From Undaria pinnatifida (Eukaryota; Sar; Phaeophyceae; Laminariales; Alariaceae), in contig JABAKD010000018.1 of the NCBI GenBank assembly GCA_012845835.1, forward strand, positions 1-64,000: 64,000 bases of DNA, written 5' to 3'. The stretch's first letter is position 1. Each line of letters opens with the position of its first letter. The notes under the pieces were generated by a model. It searched no databases, was not told the origin of the DNA, and worked only from the letters and a program-made list of their open reading frames with translations. This document shows, one piece after another, positions 18,629 to 64,000 of the stretch. Position numbers and translations under genes: made by a program.

Positions 18629-18925
18629 GCTAGTAGCATCCAAGCACCGTTCGGCTGCCCTGCCCACCCAGCGCTTGTGGTGCATTTCAGGACACACACA
18701 ACAACACCAACACACACTACATTTTGGGACACACACAAATATCAACATACACTACACTGCTAGTAGCATCCAAGCACCGTTCGGCTGCCCTGCCAACCCA
18801 GCCCTGCAAACCCAACGCTGGTGGTGCATTTTGGGACACACACACCAACACAACCACACACTACACTGCTAGTGGCATCCAAGAACCGTTCGGCTGCCTG
18901 CCAACCCAGCGCTGGTGGTGCAGGC
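18629..18925. repeat. Short tandem repeat of about 110-130 bp
   Basis: Three copies begin with GCTAGTAGCATCCAAGCACC or its one-base variants, at 18629, 18759 and 18868, each followed by CGTTCGGCTGCC and an ACACACAACACC-rich tail. The third copy is joined to the main satellite at a GCGCTGG microhomology present at both 18909-18915 and 18924-18930. Confidence 0.85.
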
Positions 18926-18930
18926 GCTGG

Positions 18931-21900
18931 AACGTTTGCGCCTCTGCTGTTCGATCCTGCTTGTGCAGGGCATTTATGACAACGAACACAACACAAACCA
19001 CACACACAAAACACACATACCAAAAACATTTTACTTCGTTGTGCCCTGGGCTGCGGGAAAAAAATACCCTCCCAAAAAAACCGCCTCGTCCTTTCAAAAC
19101 CATAAAATTCAAACGGCCCCGCTTCAAATCAAACGGCGTTACGAACTACACCCTGGCACGCAAACATCCTCGCAGCGCACACCGCACGCTCTCTACTTAT
19201 ATCCCTCGTCGGATACACCGCGCTCTTCGGCGTTACGCTGGAACGTTTGCGGCTCTGCTGTTCGATCCTGCCCGTGCGGGGCATTTGGGATGCACACAAC
19301 ACACAACACATACAACACACATTACAAACGTAGTTCACCTCGTTGTGCCCTGGGCTGCGGAAAACAAGTTCCCTCTCAAAACTACCGCCTCGTCCTTACA
19401 AAACCATAAAATTTAAACGGCCGCGTTTCAAATCAAACAGCGCTACGAACTACACCCTGGCTCGCGAACACCTTCGAAGCGCACACTGCACACCCCGTTT
19501 TTCTATCCCTCGTTGGATACACCGCGCTCCTCGGCGTTGCGCTGTAACGTTTGCGTCTCTGCTGTTCGATCCTGCTCGTGCGGGGCATTTGGGACGCACA
19601 CGACACGCACAACACACATAACAAGAACATTTCACTTCGTTGTGCCCTGGGCTGCGGGTGAAAAATTCCCTCCCAAAAATACCGCCTCGTCCTTACAAAA
19701 AAAAAAAAAAATCAAACGGCCGCGTGCTTCAAATCAAACGGCGCTACGAACTACACCCTGGCACGGAAACACCCTCGCAGCGAACACGGCACAATCTCTA
19801 TTTCTATCCCTCGTCGGATACACCGCGCTCCTCGGCGTTACGCTGGAACGTTTGCGGCTCTGCTGTTCGATCCTGCCCGTGCGGGGCATTTGGGATGCAC
19901 ACAACACAAAACACATAACAAACGTAGTTCACTTCGTTGTGCCCTGGGCTGCGGAAAACAAGTCCCCTCTCAAAACTACCGCCTCGTCCTTACAAAACCA
20001 TAAAATTCAAACGGCCGCGCTTCAAATCAAACGGCGCTACGAACTACACATTGGCACGCGAACATCATCGAAGCGCACACTGCACACCCCTTTTTTCTAT
20101 CCCTCGTCGGATACACCGCGCTCCTGGGCGTTGCACTGTAACGTTTGCGTCTCTGCTGTTCGATCCTGCTCGTGCGGGGCATTTGGGACGCACACAACAC
20201 GCACAACACACACAACACACACAACACACATAACAAGAACATTTCACTTCGTTGTGCCCTGGGCTGCGGGAAAAAAATACCCTCCCAAAAATACCGCCTC
20301 GTCCTTACAAAAAAAAAAAAAAAATCAAACGGCCGCGCGCTTCAAATCAAACGGCGCTACAAACTACACTCTGGCACTGAAACACCCTCGCAGCGGACAC
20401 CGCACAACCTCTATTTCTATCCCTCGTCGGATACACCGCGCTCCTCGGCATTACGCTGGAACGTTTGCGCCTCTGCTGTTCGATTCTGCCCGTGCGGGGC
20501 ATTTGGGATGCACACAACACAAAACACATACAACACACATAACAAAAACAGTTCACTTCGTTGTGCCCTGGACTGCGGGAAAAAAAAATTCCCTCTTAAA
20601 ACTACCGCCTCGTCCTTACAAAACCATAAAATTCAAACGGCCGCGCTTCAAATCAAACGGCGCTACGAACTACACCCTGGCACGCGAACAATATCGCAGC
20701 GCGCACTGCACGCCCTCTTTTTCTATCCCTCGTCGGATACACCGCGCTCCTCGGCGTTACGCTGGAACGTTTGCGTCTCTGCTGTTCGATCCTGCCCGTG
20801 CGGGGCATTTGGGATGCACACAACACACAACACATACAACACACATAACAAACGTAGTTCACCTCGTTGTGCCCTGGGCTGCGGAAAACAAGTCCCCTCT
20901 CAAAACTACCGCCTCGTCCTTACAAAGCCATAAAATTTAAACGGCCGCGTTTCAAATCAAACAGCGCTACGAACTACACCCTGGCTCGCGAACACCTTCG
21001 AAGCGCACACTGCACACCCCGTTTTTCTATCCCTCGTTGGATACACCGCGCTCCTCGGCGTTGCGCTGTAACGTTTGCGTCTCTGCTGTTCGATCCTGCT
21101 CGTGCGGGGCATTTGGGACGCACACGACACGCACAACACACATAACAAGAACATTTCACTTCGTTGTGCCCTGGGCTGCGGGTGAAAAATTCCCTCCCAA
21201 AAATACCGCCTCGTCCTTACAAAAAAAAAAAAAAAATCAAACGGCCGCGTGCTTCAAATCAAACGGCGCTACGAACTACACCCTGGCACGGAAACACCCT
21301 CGCAGCGAACACGGCACAATCTCTATTTCTATCCCTCGTCGGATACACCGCGCTCCTCGGCGTTACGCTGGAACGTTTGCGGCTCTGCTGTTCGATCCTG
21401 CCCGTGCGGGGCATTTGGGATGCACACAACACAAAACACATAACAAACGTAGTTCACTTCGTTGTGCCCTGGGCTGCGGAAAACAAGTCCCCTCTCAAAA
21501 CTACCGCCTCGTCCTTACAAAACCATAAAATTCAAACGGCCGCGCTTCAAATCAAACGGCGCTACGAACTACACATTGGCACGCGAACATCATCGAAGCG
21601 CACACTGCACACCCCTTTTTTCTATCCCTCGTCGGATACACCGCGCTCCTGGGCGTTGCACTGTAACGTTTGCGTCTCTGCTGTTCGATCCTGCTCGTGC
21701 GGGGCATTTGGGACGCACACAACACGCACAACACACACAACACACACAACACACATAACAAGAACATTTCACTTCGTTGTGCCCTGGGCTGCGGGAAAAA
21801 AATACCCTCCCAAAAATACCGCCTCGTCCTTACAAAAAAAAAAAAAAAATCAAACGGCCGCGCGCTTCAAATCAAACGGCGCTACAAACTACACTCTGGC

Positions 21901-24900
21901 ACTGAAACACCCTCGCAGCGGACACCGCACAACCTCTATTTCTATCCCTCGTCGGATACACCGCGCTCCTCGGCATTACGCTGGAACGTTTGCGCCTCTG
22001 CTGTTCGATTCTGCCCGTGCGGGGCATTTGGGATGCACACAACACAAAACACATACAACACACATAACAAAAACAGTTCACTTCGTTGTGCCCTGGACTG
22101 CGGGAAAAAAAAATTCCCTCTTAAAACTACCGCCTCGTCCTTACAAAACCATAAAATTCAAACGGCCGCGCTTCAAATCAAACGGCGCTACGAACTACAC
22201 CCTGGCACGCGAACAATATCGCAGCGCGCACTGCACGCCCTCTTTTTCTATCCCTCGTCGGATACACCGCGCTCCTCGGCGTTACGCTGGAACGTTTGCG
22301 TCTCTGCTGTTCGATCCTGCCCGTGCGGGGCATTTGGGATGCACACAACACACAACACATACAACACACATAACAAACGTAGTTCACCTCGTTGTGCCCT
22401 GGGCTGCGGAAAACAAGTCCCCTCTCAAAACTACCGCCTCGTCCTTACAAAGCCATAAAATTTAAACGGCCGCGTTTCAAATCAAACAGCGCTACGAACT
22501 ACACCCTGGCTCGCGAACACCTTCGAAGCGCACACTGCACACCCCGTTTTTCTATCCCTCGTTGGATACACCGCGCTCCTCGGCGTTGCGCTGTAACGTT
22601 TGCGTCTCTGCTGTTCGATCCTGCTCGTGCGGGGCATTTGGGACGCACACGACACGCACAACACACATAACAAGAACATTTCACTTCGTTGTGCCCTGGG
22701 CTGCGGGTGAAAAATTCCCTCCCAAAAATACCGCCTCGTCCTTACAAAAAAAAAAAAAAAATCAAACGGCCGCGTGCTTCAAATCAAACGGCGCTACGAA
22801 CTACACCCTGGCACGGAAACACCCTCGCAGCGAACACGGCACAATCTCTATTTCTATCCCTCGTCGGATACACCGCGCTCCTCGGCGTTACGCTGGAACG
22901 TTTGCGGCTCTGCTGTTCGATCCTGCCCGTGCGGGGCATTTGGGATGCACACAACACAAAACACATAACAAACGTAGTTCACTTCGTTGTGCCCTGGGCT
23001 GCGGAAAACAAGTCCCCTCTCAAAACTACCGCCTCGTCCTTACAAAACCATAAAATTCAAACGGCCGCGCTTCAAATCAAACGGCGCTACGAACTACACA
23101 TTGGCACGTGAACATCATCGAAGCGCACACTGCACACCCCTTTTTTCTATCCCTCGTCGGATACACCGCGCTCCTGGGCGTTGCACTGTAACGTTTGCGT
23201 CTCTGCTGTTCGATCCTGCTCGTGCGGGGCATTTGGGACGCACACAACACGCACAACACACACAACACACACAACACACATAACAAGAACATTTCACTTC
23301 GTTGTGCCCTGGGCTGCGGGAAAAAAATACCCTCCCAAAAATACCGCCTCGTCCTTACAAAAAAAAAAAAAAAATCAAACGGCCGCGCGCTTCAAATCAA
23401 ACGGCGCTACAAACTACACTCTGGCACTGAAACACCCTCGCAGCGGACACCGCACAACCTCTATTTCTATCCCTCGTCGGATACACCGCGCTCCTCGGCA
23501 TTACGCTGGAACGTTTGCGCCTCTGCTGTTCGATTCTGCCCGTGCGGGGCATTTGGGATGCACACAACACAAAACACATACAACACACATAACAAAAACA
23601 GTTCACTTCGTTGTGCCCTGGACTGCGGGAAAAAAAAATTCCCTCTTAAAACTACCGCCTCGTCCTTACAAAACCATAAAATTCAAACGGCCGCGCTTCA
23701 AATCAAACGGCGCTACGAACTACACCCTGGCACGCGAACAATATCGCAGCGCGCACTGCACGCCCTCTTTTTCTATCCCTCGTCGGATACACCGCGCTCC
23801 TCGGCGTTACGCTGGAACGTTTGCGTCTCTGCTGTTCGATCCTGCCCGTGCGGGGCATTTGGGATGCACACAACACACAACACATACAACACACATAACA
23901 AACGTAGTTCACCTCGTTGTGCCCTGGGCTGCGGAAAACAAGTCCCCTCTCAAAACTACCGCCTCGTCCTTACAAAGCCATAAAATTTAAACGGCCGCGT
24001 TTCAAATCAAACAGCGCTACGAACTACACCCTGGCTCGCGAACACCTTCGAAGCGCACACTGCACACCCCGTTTTTCTATCCCTCGTTGGATACACCGCG
24101 CTCCTCGGCGTTGCGCTGTAACGTTTGCGTCTCTGCTGTTCGATCCTGCTCGTGCGGGGCATTTGGGACGCACACGACACGCACAACACACATAACAAGA
24201 ACATTTCACTTCGTTGTGCCCTGGGCTGCGGGTGAAAAATTCCCTCCCAAAAATACCGCCTCGTCCTTACAAAAAAAAAAAAAAATCAAACGGCCGCGTG
24301 CTTCAAATCAAACGGCGCTACGAACTACACCCTGGCACGGAAACACCCTCGCAGCGAACACGGCACAATCTCTATTTCTATCCCTCGTCGGATACACCGC
24401 GCTCCTCGGCGTTACGCTGGAACGTTTGCGGCTCTGCTGTTCGATCCTGCCCGTGCGGGGGATTTGGGATGCACACAACACAAAACACATAACAAACGTA
24501 GTTCACTTCGTTGTGCCCTGGGCTGCGGAAAACAAGTCCCCTCTCAAAACTACCGCCTCGTCCTTACAAAACCATAAAATTCAAACGGCCGCGCTTCAAA
24601 TCAAACAGCGCTACGAACTACACCTTGGCACGCGAACATCATTGAAGCGCACACTGCACACCCCTTTTTTCTATCCCTCGTCGGATACACCGCGCTCCTG
24701 GGCGTTGCACTGTAACGTTTGCGTCTCTGCTGTTCGATCCTGCTCGTGCGGGGCATTTGGGACGCACACAACACGCACAACACACACAACACACACAACA
24801 CACATAACAAGAACATTTCACTTCGTTGTGCCCTGGGCTGCGGGAAAAAAATACCCTCCCAAAAATACCGCCTCGTCCTTACAAAAAAAAAAAAAAATCA

Positions 24901-27900
24901 AACGGCCGCGCGCTTCAAATCAAACGGCGCTACAAACTACACTCTGGCACTGAAACACCCTCGCAGCGGACACCGCACAACCTTTATTTCTATCCCTCGT
25001 CGGATACACCGCGCTCCTCGGCATTACGCTGGAACGTTTGCGCCTCTGCTGTTCGATTCTGCCCGTGCGGGGCATTTGGGATGCACACAACACAAAACAC
25101 ATACAACACACATAACAAAAACAGTTCACTTCGTTGTGCCCTGGACCGCGGGAAAAAAAAATTCCCTCTCAAAACTACCGCCTCGTCCTTACAAAACCAT
25201 AAAATTCAAACGGCCGCGCTTCAAATCAAACGGCGCTACGAACTACACCCTGGCACGCGAACAATATCGCAGCGCGCACTGCACGCCCTCTTTTTCTATC
25301 CCTCGTCGGATACACCGCGCTCCTCGGCGTTACGCTGGAACGTTTGCGTCTCTGCTGTTCGATCCTGCCCGTGCGGGGCATTTGGGATGCACACAACACA
25401 CAACACATACAACACACATAACAAACGTAGTTCACCTCGTTGTGCCCTGGGCTGCGGAAAACAAGTCCCCTCTCAAAACTACCGCCTCGTCCTTACAAAA
25501 CCATAAAATTTAAACGGCCGCGTTTCAAATCAAACAGCGCTACGAACTACACCCTGGCTCGCGAACACCTTCGAAGCGCACACTGCACACCCCGTTTTTC
25601 TATCCCTCGTTGGATACACCGCGCTCCTCGGCGTTGCGCTGTAACGTTTGCGTCTCTGCTGTTCGATCCTGCTCGTGCGGGGCATTTGGGACGCACACGA
25701 CACGCACAACACACATAACAAGAACATTTCACTTCGTTGTGCCCTGGGCTGCGGGTGAAAAATTCCCTCCCAAAAATACCGCCTCGTCCTTACAAAAAAA
25801 AAAAAAAATCAAACGGCCGCGTGCTTCAAATCAAACGGCGCTACGAACTACACCCTGGCACGGAAACACCCTCGCAGCGAACACGGCACAATCTCTATTT
25901 CTATCCCTCGTCGGATACACCGCGCTCCTCGGCGTTACGCTGGAACGTTTGCGGCTCTGCTGTTCGATCCTGCCCGTGCGGGGCATTTGGGATGCACACA
26001 ACACAAAACACATAACAAACGTAGTTCACTTCGTTGTGCCCTGGGCTGCGGAAAACAAGTCCCCTCTCAAAACTACCGCCTCGTCCTTACAAAACCATAA
26101 AATTCAAACGGCCGCGCTTCAAATCAAACAGCGCTACGAACTACACCTTGGCACGCGAACATCATTGAAGCGCACACTGCACACCCCTTTTTTCTATCCC
26201 TCGTCGGATACACCGCGCTCCTGGGCGTTGCACTGTAACGTTTGCGTCTCTGCTGTTCGATCCTGCTCGTGCGGGGCATTTGGGACGCACACAACACGCA
26301 CAACACACACAACACACACAACACACATAACAAGAACATTTCACTTCGTTGTGCCCTGGGCTGCGGGAAAAAAATACCCTCCCAAAAATACCGCCTCGTC
26401 CTTACAAAAAAAAAAAAAAATCAAACGGCCGCGCGCTTCAAATCAAACGGCGCTACAAACTACACTCTGGCACTGAAACACCCTCGCAGCGGACACCGCA
26501 CAACCTTTATTTCTATCCCTCGTCGGATACACCGCGCTCCTCGGCATTACGCTGGAACGTTTGCGCCTCTGCTGTTCGATTCTGCCCGTGCGGGGCATTT
26601 GGGATGCACACAACACAAAACACATACAACACACATAACAAAAACAGTTCACTTCGTTGTGCCCTGGACCGCGGGAAAAAAAAATTCCCTCTCAAAACTA
26701 CCGCCTCGTCCTTACAAAACCATAAAATTCAAACGGCCGCGCTTCAAATCAAACGGCGCTACGAACTACACCCTGGCACGCGAACAATATCGCAGCGCGC
26801 ACTGCACGCCCTCTTTTTCTATCCCTCGACGGATACACCGCGCTCCTCGGCGTTGCGCTGGAACGTTTGCGTCTCTGCTGTTCGATCCTGCCCGTGCGGG
26901 GCATTTGGGATGCACACAACACACAACACATACAACACACATAACAAACGTAGTTCACCTCGTTGTGCCCTGGGCTGCGGAAAACAAGTCCCCTCTCAAA
27001 ACTACCGCCTCGTCCTTACAAAACCATAAAATTTAAACGGCCGCGTTTCAAATCAAACAGCGCTACGAACTACACCCTGGCTCGCGAACACCTTCGAAGC
27101 GCACACTGCACACCCCGTTTTTCTATCCCTCGTTGGATACACCGCGCTCCTCGGCGTTGCGCTGTAACGTTTGCGTCTCTGCTGTTCGATCCTGCTCGTG
27201 CGGGGCATTTGGGACGCACACGACACGCACAACACACATAACAAGAACATTTCACTTCGTTGTGCCCTGGGCTGCGGGTGAAAAATTCCCTCCCAAAAAT
27301 ACCGCCTCGTCCTTACAAAAAAAAAAAAAAATCAAACGGCCGCGTGCTTCAAATCAAACGGCGCTACGAACTACACCCTGGCACGGAAACACCCTCGCAG
27401 CGAACACGGCACAATCTCTATTTCTATCCCTCGTCGGATACACCGCGCTCCTCGGCGTTACGCTGGAACGTTTGCGGCTCTGCTGTTCGATCCTGCCCGT
27501 GCGGGGCATTTGGGATGCACACAACACAAAACACATAACAAACGTAGTTCACTTCGTTGTGCCCTGGGCTGCGGAAAACAAGTCCCCTCTCAAAACTACC
27601 GCCTCGTCCTTACAAAACCATAAAATTCAAACGGCCGCGCTTCAAATCAAACGGCGCTACGAACTACACCCTGGCACGCGAACAATATCGCAGCGCGCAC
27701 TGCACGCCCTCTTTTTCTATCCCTCGTCGGATACACCGCGCTCCTCGGCGTTGCGCTGGAACGTTTGCGTCTCTGCTGTTCGATCCTGCCCGTGCGGGGC
27801 ATTTGGGATGCACACAACACACAACACATACAACACACATAACAAACGTAGTTCACCTCGTTGTGCCCTGGGCTGCGGAAAACAAGTCCCCTCTCAAAAC

Positions 27901-30838
27901 TACCGCCTCGTCCTTACAAAGCCATAAAATTTAAACGGCCGCGTTTCAAATCAAACAGCGCTACGAACTACACCCTGGCTCGCGAACACCTTCGAAGCGC
28001 ACACTGCACACCCCGTTTTTCTATCCCTCGTTGGATACACCGCGCTCCTCGGCGTTGCGCTGTAACGTTTGCGTCTCTGCTGTTCGATCCTGCTCGTGCG
28101 GGGCATTTGGGACGCACACGACACGCACAACACACATAACAAGAACATTTCACTTCGTTGTGCCCTGGGCTGCGGGTGAAAAATTCCCTCCCAAAAATAC
28201 CGCCTCGTCCTTACAAAAAAAAAAAAAAATCAAACGGCCGCGTGCTTCAAATCAAACGGCGCTACGAACTACACCCTGGCACGGAAACACCCTCGCAGCG
28301 AACACGGCACAATCTCTATTTCTATCCCTCGTCGGATACACCGCGCTCCTCGGCGTTACGCTGGAACGTTTGCGGCTCTGCTGTTCGATCCTGCCCGTGC
28401 GGGGGATTTGGGATGCACACAACACAAAACACATAACAAACGTAGTTCACTTCGTTGTGCCCTGGGCTGCGGAAAACAAGTCCCCTCTCAAAACTACCGC
28501 CTCGTCCTTACAAAACCATAAAATTCAAACGGCCGCGCTTCAAATCAAACAGCGCTACGAACTACACCTTGGCACGCGAACATCATTGAAGCGCACACTG
28601 CACACCCCTTTTTTCTATCCCTCGTCGGATACACCGCGCTCCTGGGCGTTGCACTGTAACGTTTGCGTCTCTGCTGTTCGATCCTGCTCGTGCGGGGCAT
28701 TTGGGACGCACACAACACGCACAACACACACAACACACACAACACACATAACAAGAACATTTCACTTCGTTGTGCCCTGGGCTGCGGGAAAAAAATACCC
28801 TCCCAAAAATACCGCCTCGTCCTTACAAAAAAAAAAAAAAATCAAACGGCCGCGCGCTTCAAATCAAACGGCGCTACAAACTACACTCTGGCACTGAAAC
28901 ACCCTCGCAGCGGACACCGCACAACCTTTATTTCTATCCCTCGTCGGATACACCGCGCTCCTCGGCATTACGCTGGAACGTTTGCGCCTCTGCTGTTCGA
29001 TTCTGCCCGTGCGGGGCATTTGGGATGCACACAACACAAAACACATACAACACACATAACAAAAACAGTTCACTTCGTTGTGCCCTGGACCGCGGGAAAA
29101 AAAAATTCCCTCTCAAAACTACCGCCTCGTCCTTACAAAACCATAAAATTCAAACGGCCGCGCTTCAAATCAAACGGCGCTACGAACTACACCCTGGCAC
29201 GCGAACAATATCGCAGCGCGCACTGCACGCCCTCTTTTTCTATCCCTCGACGGATACACCGCGCTCCTCGGCGTTGCGCTGGAACGTTTGCGTCTCTGCT
29301 GTTCGATCCTGCCCGTGCGGGGCATTTGGGATGCACACAACACACAACACATACAACACACATAACAAACGTAGTTCACCTCGTTGTGCCCTGGGCTGCG
29401 GAAAACAAGTCCCCTCTCAAAACTACCGCCTCGTCCTTACAAAACCATAAAATTTAAACGGCCGCGTTTCAAATCAAACAGCGCTACGAACTACACCCTG
29501 GCTCGCGAACACCTTCGAAGCGCACACTGCACACCCCGTTTTTCTATCCCTCGTTGGATACACCGCGCTCCTCGGCGTTGCGCTGTAACGTTTGCGTCTC
29601 TGCTGTTCGATCCTGCTCGTGCGGGGCATTTGGGACGCACACGACACGCACAACACACATAACAAGAACATTTCACTTCGTTGTGCCCTGGGCTGCGGGT
29701 GAAAAATTCCCTCCCAAAATACCGCCTCGTCCTTACAAAAAAAAAAAAAAATCAAACGGCCGCGTGCTTCAAATCAAACGGCGCTACGAACTACACCCTG
29801 GCACGGAAACACCCTCGCAGCGAACACGGCACAATCTCTATTTCTATCCCTCGTCGGATACACCGCGCTCCTCGGCGTTACGCTGGAACGTTTGCGGCTC
29901 TGCTGTTCGATCCTGCCCGTGCGGGGCATTTGGGATGCACACAACACAAAACACATAACAAACGTAGTTCACTTCGTTGTGCCCTGGGCTGCGGAAAACA
30001 AGTCCCCTCTCAAAACTACCGCCTCGTCCTTACAAAACCATAAAATTCAAACGGCCGCGCTTCAAATCAAACGGCGCTACGAACTACACATTGGCACGCG
30101 AACATCATCGAAGCGCACACTGCACACCCCTTTTTTCTATCCCTCGTCGGATACACCGCGCTCCTGGCCGTTGCACTGTAACGTTTGCGTCTCTGCTGTT
30201 CGATCCTGCTCGTGCGGGGCATTTGGGACGCACACAACACGCACAACACACACAACACACACAACACACATAACAAGAACATTTCACTTCGTTGTGCCCT
30301 GGGCTGCGGGAAAAAAATACCCTCCCAAAAATACCGCCTCGTCCTTACAAAAAAAAAAAAAAAATCAAACGGTCGCGCGCTTCAAATCAAACGGCGCTAC
30401 AAACTGCACTTTGGCACTGAAACACCCTCGCAGCGGACACCGCACAACCTTTATTTCTATCCCTCGTCGGATACACCGCGCTCTTCGGCATTACGCTGGA
30501 ACGTTTGCGCCTCTGCTGTTCGATTCTGCCCGTGCGGGGCATTTGGGATGCACACAACACAAAACACATACAACACACATAACAAAAACAGTTCACTTTG
30601 TTGTGCCCTGGACTGCGGGAAAAAAAAATTCCCTCTCAAAACTACCGCCTCGTCCTTACAAAACCATAAAATTCAAACGGCCGCGCTTCAAATCAAACGG
30701 CGCTACGAACTACACCCTGGCACGCGAACAATATCGCAGCGCGCACTGCACGCCCTCTTTTTCTATCCCTCGTCGGATACACCGCGCTCCTCGGCGTTGC
30801 GCTGGAACGTTTGCGTCTCTGCTGTTCGATCCTGCCCG
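18931..30838. repeat. Satellite 2: ~300-bp monomers in five-monomer higher-order repeats
   Basis: Each monomer is marked by AACGTTTGCG followed by CTCTGCTGTTCGAT. I located 40 such starts from 18931 to 30806. Five recognisable monomer types recur in fixed order with lengths of about 301, 293, 320, 306 and 304 bp. They give higher-order units starting at 19546, 21070, 22595, 24120, 25643, 27166, 28064 and 29587. Types differ in the length of an ACACAACACA tract and in whether an A12-A16 run is present. Long open frames cross the array in several readings (up to 475 codons), but monomer lengths are not multiples of three, so no single frame is kept between monomers. I treat the array as noncoding. 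Confidence 0.96.
27166..28063. repeat. Deleted higher-order unit lacking two monomers
   Basis: Monomer starts at 27166, 27467 and 27760 are followed by the next unit at 28064. This copy has monomer types 1, 2 and 5 only. Types 3 and 4 (about 625 bp) are missing and the junction keeps monomer phase, as expected from unequal exchange between monomers. Confidence 0.85.
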
Positions 30839-30957
30839 TGTGGTCTGCCGTGTCTGCGTGCGGTGGCGACTGCGTCCTTCAGTTCGTCTGCTGCATACTT
30901 CCTCTCGCTGGTTCTCTTGTCGCAGCTCATCTCCGCCGCGTGTTGTGGGTGTCTGCT

Positions 30958-47668: not shown

Positions 47669-48004
<336 letters not shown>

Positions 48005-53708: not shown

Positions 53709-54347
53709 CCCAAACTCGGTCCGTGCGCCAACGCCAGAAGGGCGACAGCAGACACGGCGGAGGGGCTTGAGAGGGACCTCTACGTAGCTAAGGGAGCCAA
53801 GGTCATGCTCACGAAGAACCTGTACCAACAAGGTGGACTCGTGAACGGCATTCGAGGCCAAATCGTCGAGTTGGTGTTTGCAGACGACGCGCCCCCGCCG
53901 GACCTCCCCCTTTACGTTGTCGTCAAGTTCAGAGGGTACTCAGGGGGGGAATGGTCGTCCCAGGAGATATATATAGGGTGTGTGCCGATTTCTCCCGTAG
54001 ACACTACTTGGCAGGAGGGGGGAACGCAGGTCAGGACGCAACTGCCGTTGAGGCTCTGCTGGGCGATCACTATGCACAAATCACAGGGGCAGACGTGAGG
54101 GAAGACCGTCATAGACTTGGGGCCGAAGGAGGCCTGCACGGGGCTTACTTTCGTCTGTCTTAGTAGGGCTAAAAGACTAGCGGACCTCATGGTAGAGCCA
54201 ATGAGTTTCGACAGGATAGGCAAGCTTGGAAACTCCGACACCATGAAAGCTAGGTTGCGGGAAGAGGTTAGGCTGGTGGACTTAGCACAAAGCACGCGGG
54301 GTAGGTACACAGGCATAGGCGTCTTCAACGCCGTCGCGGCCAACTAA
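53709..54347 (+). pseudogene. PIF1-like DNA helicase, C-terminal fragment with in-frame stop
   Basis: PIF1 helicases are ATP-dependent 5'-to-3' DNA helicases (superfamily 1B). In many eukaryotes they occur as multicopy genes and inside Helitron-type elements. This frame carries the C-terminal landmarks in order: a LYVAKGAKVMLTKNLY segment, GLVNGIRGQIVELVF, CVPISPVDTTW, TQLPLRLCWAITMHKSQGQT (the conserved HKSQG motif), and after a stop VIDLGPKEACTGLTFVCLSR with AKRLADLMVEP. It ends GVFNAVAAN and a stop at 54345. A TGA at 54096-54098 interrupts the frame directly after HKSQGQT, and the same reading frame resumes at once, so this is a nonsense change rather than a frameshift. Another TGA at 53706 closes the 5' side. 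Helicase motifs I and II (the nucleotide-binding half) are absent upstream, where the DNA is CA-rich. It is therefore a truncated, broken copy. It sits between two similar repeat blocks. Confidence 0.85.
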
Positions 54348-60946: not shown

Positions 60947-61222
60947 AGACGCGTGGTACCATAGAGGCGCGACCTTCTTTTTCTGGAGTTCCTCACTTCC
61001 GGAGCTTGAGACATGTCCTTCTTGACCCAAAAACTGATTTAGAGAAGACAAGAAAAAAAATGCTGACCCCCGATGAAAAAAAAAACCCGAGGTCTAGGTA
61101 TAGAACGAGAATCATGCAACAACAAAAAATCCAATTTCCGACGATCTTGGGTTAAGGAGCCTCATCGTTCAGATACCATTTCTTGAGACGAAATGTGCTA
61201 CCAACATCTTAGCACGCGTCCG
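60947..61222 (+). repeat. Family 1 TIR element, copy c
   Basis: Left end AGACGCGTGGTACCATAGAG and right end AACATCTTAGCACGCGTCCG. The interior has GGAGTTCCTCACTTCCGGAG, GAGGTCTAGGTATAGAACGA and ATTTCCGACGATCTTGGGTT. Confidence 0.8.
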
Positions 61223-61530: not shown

Positions 61531-61855
61531 CTATTTACAACCCAAAAATGGGATACAATCCAACCATCTAGCGGTCTCGGCATATTTCATTCCCAAACGC
61601 GGAGGAGGTAGCCGCAATCGATCTATTTTCTCGAACGGGTATCTTGCTCCTGCCTGTATAACGTGCGTCGTGCGGCAAAGAAGAACCTTGAGGTCGTCAA
61701 GAGTAAATGCCTGTTTCTCATCCGGCGGAGCCGTGGGACTCAAAAATGTCAGGCAACCGTGATCATCGGTATCTTCCCCCCTGCCCGTCCCAAGCATTCG
61801 CACCACCACTTTCTCGACCTCGAGTTCCACCAGTTCCACCGTCGTTCACAAACGG
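61531..61855 (-). pseudogene. Unit with intact DEKQAFTLDDLKVLLC frame, unknown family
   Basis: The minus-strand frame opens after a TGA near 61850. It reads VELVELEVEKVVV, then an acidic-basic linker, PPDEKQAFTLDDLKVLLC, and continues for about 35 residues (RTTHVIQAGARYPFEK and onward) to a stop near 61531. There is no ATG at the beginning, so it may be an exon or a gene fragment. Within the 16-residue core all differences from the unit at 63.7 kb are synonymous. Confidence 0.4.
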
Positions 61856-63300
61856 CGGAGAGACAACCCAAACAACTTATTGATGGTTTCTAAAGGCTGT
61901 CAACTCCCTAGCTATGTATCGCCCGTGGCGCAGCGAAAAGAAAATGTTGAGATCGTCAAGAGCGAACGACTGCTGCTTGTTCGCTATAGTCGTGAGACTC
62001 GACGACATCGGCAACCCGCCATCGCTATCTTCCTCCCCCTCTACCTCCCGAGCATCATCATCACCACAGTCTCCACCTCGCGTCCCACCAGATCAACCAT
62101 TGTTAGGCCAACGAAGGGGAGACAACCCCAACCAGCTATTACCTTCTAAAGCCTGTGGATTATCTTAGCTAGATCTATAGCCCGCGGCGCAGCAAAGGTG
62201 AAACTTGGCGTCGTTCACAGCGAAGCCCTACTTCCCGTCTGGGAAGACTTGACAACGTTGGCAACCCGTCATCATGATTCTCTTCCCCCTCCCCCTCCCA
62301 AGCATCATCACCACCGCTTCCTCGACCTCAAGTCCCCTCAGTTCGACCATGGTTCACTAACGGAGAGGGGACAACCTCAACTAATTAATGGCTGCCGATA
62401 TCTTAGCTATGTATACCCGTGCCGCAGCAAAGGAAAAGCTTGAGGTAATCAGGAGTGAACGCCTGCTGCTCGTCCGACGGTAACCTTGAGTCTTGACAAC
62501 ATTGGCAACCCGTCATAATCATCCTCTTCCCCCTCCCCCTCCCAAGCATCATCACCACCATTTTTTCGACCTCGAGTCTCCACAGTTCGACCACCGTTTA
62601 CAAATGAATGGAACGCAACCCCAGTCAACTACACGTTTCAAAAGGCTGTCGATATCAAAGCTATCTATACGAGTCCGTGGCACCGCAAAAGAGACCTTTG
62701 CGGTCGTCAAAAGTGAACGCATGTTTCTCGTCAGACGTAGCCGTGAGAGTCGACAACAATCGGCAACCCGCCATCATCGTCCTCTTCCCCCTCCCCCTCC
62801 CAAGCACCACCACCACTTCCCCACCTGAAGTCCCCTAAAATTCACCGCCGCTCTCATAAAAGGGGTTACAAGCCCAATCGATTACAGTTTTGGAAAGGCT
62901 GCCGATATCTCAGCGATCGATAACCCGTTGCGCGGCAAATGGGAATCTTGTGGTAATCCAGAGTCAACGCCCATTTTCTCGTCCGAATTACGAGTCGTAA
63001 CTTTCGACAACCGCCGGTAACCCTTTATCATCCTCCTCTTCCTACCCCCCCCCCCCCCCCCCCCCCCCCCTTCCCGAAAGCATCGCCGTTGCCTCCACAT
63101 CCCATCCCCCCAGCCGCCCCCCAGCCGCATAGTTAATCACAACCGGAAGGAGCGACCTAAACAGAGATTAACCGGATGCTCAAGAAGGCTCGTGTCTTGT
63201 CAGTCGCGCAGCACCGGAGACTGTTTAGGCCATCCAGAGTGACTGCCTTCTTCCTCGCACGACGTAGGATACAAGCCATAAGACTCAACAGCGCCGGCAA
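61560..63300 (-). repeat. Decayed tandem array of ~255-bp coding-like units
   Basis: Seven units are recognisable by a conserved core of about 55 bp at roughly 61673, 61926, 62186, 62421, 62681, 62928 and 63206, with an eighth at 63717. The unit spacing is about 235-280 bp. Read on the minus strand, each core encodes a version of a peptide typified by DEKQAFTLDDLKVLLC. Examples are SDEQQAFTPDYLKLFLCC, SDEKHAFTFDDRKGLFCGA and ANKQQSFALDDLNIFFS; the third unit has a stop inside. Around the core are a CTTGGGAGGGGGAGGGGGAA tract upstream and TATACATAGCTAAGATATCG downstream. The peptide family is not one I recognise. Most units are clearly decayed. Confidence 0.7.
63045..63070. repeat. C26 homopolymer
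   Basis: Twenty-six consecutive C on the + strand within the decayed unit array, replacing the CCCCCTCCCCCTCCC tract seen in neighbouring units. Confidence 0.9.
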
Positions 63301-63402
63301 CCGTCCGCCATGCGATCACCACCGATATCTCGGCCTGGTGTCCCTCCAGTTACCACCAAAATTCCTCCAAACGCAGTGAGGAGGGGCAGAAATGAACAAC
63401 GT

Positions 63403-63645
63403 TTCTAGAGGCTACCGCGGGGGAGGGGGGGGGCACCCCCATTTCCCCTGCCGTTGTTGAGGTTTCCATCCTTCGCACGAGTGACTCTGTACCTCACGGA
63501 CAAGAAGAATGTTTGGAAAACAACAAATCATCGCAGCGTAGGTTACCATGCCGTCGCGGATTCATACCGCCAAAAAATAACAGCACGAAAGGCTAAGCTC
63601 GCCAAGGAACAGGGGATCACTCGCGCGAGTGACCCCGAGCCACCG
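63403..63645 (+). repeat. Dispersed hairpin-ended repeat, family 3, copy f
   Basis: The best-preserved terminal hairpin: GGGATCACTCGCGCGAGTGA followed by CCCC (63613-63636). Upstream landmarks are GAGGCTACCGCGGGGGAGG, ACGAGTGACTCTGTACCTCA and GCGGATTCATACCGCC. The element separates units seven and eight of the coding-like array, which explains their wider spacing (about 511 bp). Confidence 0.7.
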
Positions 63646-63702
63646 GCACCGCAAACGTGACTCCTCCACTGGTGTGCAGCCTTGGTCGGGGTATACGTCT
63701 CT

Positions 63703-64000
63703 CTATCTGTCGCCCGTCGCGCAGCACAGGAGAACCTTAAGGTCGTCCAAAGTGAAGGCTTGTTTCTCGTCCGAACTAGCGGTAAGACTCGACAACGCCG
63801 GCAGCCCGTCATCATCATCCTCTTCCTCCTCCTGCTCCTCCTCCTCCTCCCCAGAAATATCACATCCATCATTGTTTTGGCGTCGCATTCCGTCAGTCCT
63901 ATCAAAATGTCTCGCACCCGTCTGACCCGAACCTCTCCCCACAACCTCCTCCCCCTCCTGCTCCTCCTCGTCGTCGTAGCTATGCACAGCACCATGCCTC
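63703..64000 (-). CDS. Partial acidic protein with DEKQAFTLDDLKVLLC core, unknown family
   Basis: On the minus strand this frame is open from the window edge (64000) down to a stop near 63703, so its true start lies outside the window. It has an acidic stretch (YDDEEEQEGEE), a region with RTDGMRRQNNDGCDISG, a second acidic run (EEEEEQEEEEDDDD), and then SDEKQAFTLDDLKVLLC followed by CATGDR and the stop. It is the eighth and least decayed member of the repeat series to its left, and the only one without an internal break in the visible part. I do not recognise the family. The acidic runs come from a CTC-type microsatellite (63812-63851 on the + strand), which may have expanded in place. An exon that ends near ATG-GGC by splicing is possible. 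Confidence 0.45.
   Translation of the reverse strand, partial: RHGAVHSYDDEEEQEGEEVVGRGSGQTGARHFDRTDGMRRQNNDGCDISGEEEEEQEEEEDDDDGLPALSSLTASSDEKQAFTLDDLKVLLCCATGDR

Follow-up and report, generated by a model that had tools for sequence, protein, structure and literature searches.

At one end of the window analyzed here, the opening 64,000 nucleotides of contig C24 in the host genome, eight units related to one another are arranged head-to-tail on the minus strand between about 61.6 and 63.84 kb, and a single one of them, u1, carries the signature of protein-level constraint over its whole length. We interpret this array, with a probability of roughly 0.57, as the product of an orphan gene whose 3' end was duplicated in tandem, with the extra copies decaying neutrally and u1 remaining under purifying selection. 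The term orphan is used here for a candidate gene for which no relative was found in the host genome, Pfam, PDB or the viral, phage and prokaryote collections searched.

Eight head-to-tail units match the end of an open reading frame

The core anchors of the eight units, u1 to u8, lie at positions 63771, 63259, 62983, 62732, 62474, 62239, 61981 and 61722, with successive steps of 512, 276, 251, 258, 235, 258 and 259 bases. Unit u1 (63706..63838, minus strand) constitutes the end of a minus-strand frame that is open on the contig from 64335 to 63706, extending beyond the window end, and that would encode 179 codons from an in-frame ATG at 64242. The window itself contains the 3' part of this orphan frame, comprising its last 98 codons and the TAG stop (63703..64000, minus strand). 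Within u1, the module is composed of an acidic run followed by GLPALSSLTASS, DEKQAFTLDDLKVLLC and CCATGDR. BLASTN comparison of the open frame (63.7-64.3 kb) against the window and 36 kb beyond it yielded matches to all seven remaining units, with E-values ranging from 1e-23 (u4) to 6e-8 (u2). These matches cover 100-145 columns and fall entirely within the final 147 bases of the frame, a segment that starts at the acidic run and reaches approximately as far as the stop codon. The original prediction of about eight minus-strand copies of a module is hence borne out by both the alignment and the BLASTN matches. Likeness between whole units is approximately 51-72%, and the tree inferred for them is star-like, with weak support (29-65%).

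Five of the eight units (u1, u4, u5, u6 and u7) present TAG in the aligned stop column, and units u2 to u7, all on the minus strand, are decayed copies. The frame of u2 (63203..63302) is broken by insertions, and u3 (62924..63068) and u5 (62416..62542) harbor frameshifts. Unit u4 (62675..62800) contains a frameshift and retains the aligned stop, as does u7 (61919..62041), where the frameshift is located close to the end of the core; u6 (62174..62298) has an 8-bp deletion and an in-frame TAG within the core. In u8 (61666..61790, minus strand), a core of 16 codons differs from that of u1 by synonymous changes only and is flanked by nonsynonymous ones, and the aligned stop has been lost. Together with the neutral substitution ratios reported below, the frame-breaking indels and stops of u2 to u7 agree with the earlier proposal that most units have decayed.

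Constraint across the whole module is confined to u1

We assessed protein-level constraint with a test independent of any chosen stretch, in which every unit was set against the majority of the remaining seven over 39 module codons that begin at the acidic run and extend as far as the stop. In this comparison inserted bases of decayed units were dropped and gapped codons skipped, and u2 and u6 thus contribute fewer codons. Unit u1 presents 10 synonymous and 5 nonsynonymous differences, where the synonymous share expected was 0.26 (P = 0.001). The corresponding synonymous to nonsynonymous counts are 9:17 for u2, 7:16 for u3, 6:11 for u4, 5:12 for u5, 4:14 for u6, 5:18 for u7 and 8:16 for u8, with P-values between 0.21 and 0.76 for these seven units and no synonymous excess in u8 (P = 0.27). 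The smallest P-value among the 40 tests performed on the five other frames was 0.044, and one of the 48 unit-by-frame tests, that of u1 in its own frame, fell below 0.01. Star-tree simulations modeling the noise of the majority (4000 trials each) assigned the u1 result probabilities of 0.00005, 0.00015 and 0.0003 at transition weights 1, 2 and 3, respectively, and a similar share in any of the eight units was attained with a probability of 0.00025-0.0025.

These results establish u1 as the only unit with a protein-level signature across the whole module, and over the 39 codons the other seven, u8 included, fit neutral decay. The suggestion that the repeat derives from protein-coding sequence under selection is accordingly supported for u1 and, over the whole module, not supported for the remaining seven; the synonymous excess proposed as a check across copies appears in one of the eight units in the coding frame.

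The 16-codon core of u1 and u8

Over the 16-codon core, DEKQAFTLDDLKVLLC, u1 and u8 differ in eight codons and nine bases, eight of which are third positions, and every difference is synonymous. The observation of exclusively synonymous core differences on which the original prediction was built is therefore correct, its count of nine differing codons becomes eight codons with nine differing bases, and the amino acid changes that it placed in the flanks of the core are seen in the 39-codon comparison. The 16-codon stretch had been picked after inspection of the data. In a scan permutation that redistributed mismatches over the 28 unit pairs and six frames, at least eight synonymous codon differences without an intervening nonsynonymous one were obtained in 5 of 1000 trials, placing the pattern above chance, yet not overwhelmingly so. 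Simulations on the chosen 16 codons of this pair returned probabilities of 5e-6 and 3e-5 at transition weights 2 and 4, respectively, and no occurrence in 200,000 trials at weight 1.

Set against the majority sequence of the remaining units, the core of u8 contains one nonsynonymous difference, a V/I change at a split column, and the module contains 15 nonsynonymous codons outside the core. A clean run of 16 codons, counting the V/I column as unchanged, arose in 3.4 per 10,000 shuffles. The clean core of u8 is thus poorly explained by simple decay, and it is a local feature rather than a signal of the whole module. The view that the two best copies are both conserved coding units is not sustained for u8, given that its signal is confined to the 16 chosen codons, its aligned stop is lost and its codon score is low.

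Codon usage and predicted product of the open frame

The codon-usage score was trained on 24 kinase exons from the host genome (3253 codons), which were themselves scored leave-one-out. These exons correspond to 24 of 30 loci, after three had been dropped because of stops and three others, on contigs C45 and C50, as suspected contaminants. As controls, we used 49 open frames, each 100 codons or longer, from window positions 31-60 kb. The frame ending in u1 scored 0.131 per codon, above 47 of the 49 control frames, the two that outscore it being of low complexity. This value falls within the range of the kinase exons (0.00-0.37; control frames, -0.57 to 0.64), of which 20 of 24 score higher. 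On synonymous choice alone, the frame reached 0.048, above 45 of the 49 controls and below 20 of the 24 kinase exons. The score is unevenly distributed, with 0.325 in the tail module and 0.069 in the middle of the frame, and over its 630 bases the antisense reading scored 0.069 and the sense reading 0.097; for synonymous choice only, the antisense value (0.072) exceeds that of the sense strand (0.048). For the 102-codon frame containing u8, the score was -0.084 (-0.161 for synonymous choice); every one of the 24 kinase exons scores higher, and approximately 41 (whole score) and 30 (synonymous choice) of the 49 control frames score lower. For a gene in the u1 frame, codon usage hence offers real yet modest evidence, being weakly gene-like.

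AlphaFold modeling of the 98 in-window residues, run with no alignment, produced a mean pLDDT of 60 and a single helix at residues 84-95. This outcome would fit an acidic, probably disordered product of the u1 frame with a short helix at its end.

Relatives are detected at this locus only

Searches were carried out on the host genome assembly (511,146,479 bases in 68 contigs). When the complete assembly was searched in six frames with the 43-aa tail, accepting E-values up to 10, five matches were obtained, all at the locus; this search overlooked u2, u3 and u6, and strongly decayed copies elsewhere could escape it in the same manner. A DNA search with 1231 bp of the array recovered the array and u1, and nothing elsewhere in the host genome. 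The 152-aa upstream part of the frame had no convincing relative in the host genome outside the locus, its sole outside match (E = 0.34) being 29% identical and containing two stops. The protein and DNA searches thus concur in revealing none of the many genome-wide copies by which a coding family was to be recognized, and at the sensitivity used they support the proposed local amplification of the eight units.

In Pfam, no family was matched by the 98-aa, the 102-aa or the full 210-codon frames (up to E-values of 5 and 10), consistent with the earlier inability to assign the peptide to any named domain. PDB sequences contained no relative of a 34-aa query, viral contigs and prokaryote species genomes none of a 98-aa query, and phages none of a 43-aa query, and looking for DEKQAFTLDDLK in the literature turned up no paper. 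Among ten neighboring open frames, none passed the Pfam family cut-off, the one weak match having an E-value of 0.062.

Neighboring repeats

The sequence surrounding the array contains several further repeats. A second array, made of diverged copies of the open frame's 5'-terminal part (the REKKHNMLRVATGSP region) interspersed with long poly-C runs, is located just upstream of the frame at contig C24:64454-65562, and the orphan frame is consequently flanked at both ends by copies of itself. A dispersed repeat approximately 250 bp long lies at contig C24:64696-64952, with a related piece at window positions 61094-61220. It has 2340 first-look candidates genome-wide; of the 40 that were scored, 39 are elsewhere, at 75-78% identity. 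From its size and copy number, we would guess that this repeat is SINE- or MITE-like. The very start of the contig (window 1-6670) is occupied by a 324-bp satellite with 20.6 copies that are 99% alike, and a 304-bp repeat with 39 copies, 83% alike, spans positions 18925-30840. A 9-bp repeat embedded in the latter returns at intervals of mostly 1.52 kb, which points to a higher-order unit made up of five repeats. The window also contains a 334-bp array of the hexamer (GAAGGA)n (47671-48004) and, on the plus strand at 53709-54095, a Pif1-like helicase fragment (PF21530, E = 3.6e-9) that may stem from a mobile element such as a Helitron.

Comparison with known tandem arrays

Tandem partial gene duplications and pseudogene arrays are a known kind of locus, and the array described here behaves as a tandem pseudogene array lying beside its parent gene. 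As in such arrays, one copy in an open frame carries a protein signature and its neighbors present frameshifts or stops and neutral ratios: u1 takes the place of the constrained parent, in a frame of weakly gene-like codon usage, and u2 to u7 that of the disabled, neutrally evolving copies, with u8 having lost its stop but keeping an unusually clean 16-codon core. It departs from them in that approximately the last 44 codons have been copied seven times, at a spacing of mostly 235-276 bp, and in that the parent gene is without a known relative.

Head-to-tail units near a contig start that holds two long tandem arrays are also reminiscent of satellite DNA. Unlike a satellite, the array comprises eight units that are about 51-72% alike and contain the end of an open frame; it is absent from the Tandem Repeats Finder list and lacks the homogeneity and high copy number of satellites.

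Brown-algal ROCO genes are described as carrying tandem LRR exon cassettes (PMC11378527), with one LRR motif per exon, that are shuffled and alternatively spliced. Short coding modules in tandem at one locus are common to those genes and to this array. The units reported here, by contrast, match no Pfam domain and are mostly disabled, inspection by eye revealed no splice acceptor shared among them, and the likeness is only superficial. Pfam searches of the frames up to E-values of 5 and 10 revealed neither LRR nor any other named repeat domain.

Origin of the array

Under the interpretation that we favor, u1 would be the tail of a real, lineage-restricted gene running on the minus strand of the contig from 64.24 to 63.70 kb. 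Its product of about 179 residues would have an acidic, Ser/Asn/Lys-rich and probably disordered body, ending in a short helix (the LDDLKVLLC region) that may serve as a docking motif. Tandem duplication of the gene's 3'-terminal part, beginning with the acidic run and reaching approximately to the stop, together with approximately 120 bp of adjacent non-coding DNA, would have generated seven extra units that were incomplete, without the 5' part of the gene, and that subsequently drifted neutrally, with u1 kept under purifying selection. The array, the restriction of matches to this locus at the sensitivity used, the constraint signature of u1 and the disabling changes in the other units are observed directly; the expression of the gene and the direction of the duplication, as well as the disorder of the product and the docking role of its helix, are inferred. 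The synonymous excess over the whole u1 module, the codon score of the frame, the star-like tree, the restriction of matches to the locus, the shared TAG column and the helix all argue for this scenario, which is weakened by the clean core of u8, the modest codon score and the low confidence of a structure model obtained from a single sequence.

Several alternative explanations were considered. The array could be the non-coding debris of tandem repeats close to the end of a contig, with the u1 frame and the synonymous pattern arising by chance, aided by the choice of stretch. The abundance of satellites at the contig start, a scan-corrected P-value of only 0.005 for the chosen stretch, and a frame that most kinase exons outscore, with a weakly coding middle and about equal antisense and sense scores, are compatible with this idea. 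It remains somewhat unlikely in our assessment: the whole-module test, which does not involve the chosen stretch, picks out u1 in its own frame, and the open frame outscores nearly all of the control frames. A larger distance separates the local array from a coding family or mobile element dispersed through the genome, of which this locus would be one decayed cluster. Nothing beyond the local copies was found to speak for such a family, in searches of limited reach of which the protein one missed three of the eight local units, and neither the 43-aa, the 1231-bp nor the 152-aa query found a convincing relative elsewhere, which makes it very improbable.

A different possibility is that u1 and u8 are both functional, now or until recently, as alternative last exons or short genes bearing the 16-residue motif, with selection confined to the motif and no such restriction on the flanks. 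The eight synonymous and zero nonsynonymous codon differences between their cores, the scan permutation and the improbability of the clean u8 run under shuffling speak for this reading, but the aligned stop column of u8 reads CAG, 16 of the 24 changed codons in its module are nonsynonymous and the codon score of its frame lies under every kinase exon. Moreover, a splice-acceptor AG common to the units upstream of the module was not seen in the alignment, as judged by eye. We hence regard joint function of u1 and u8 as unlikely, and as more doubtful still the specific proposal that DEKQAFTLDDLKVLLC is a new functional peptide, selected in both units, that provides exchangeable C-terminal ends for an orphan acidic disordered protein.

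In the orphan-gene interpretation, the locus constitutes a small natural experiment in which a short peptide is present in one constrained copy next to seven others that decay freely. For proteins without detectable homologs, dN/dS can usually not be measured. Apart from what it may offer in this respect, the locus reflects ordinary genome turnover; if the gene is expressed, its decayed copies would supply a neutral reference for measuring such an orphan.
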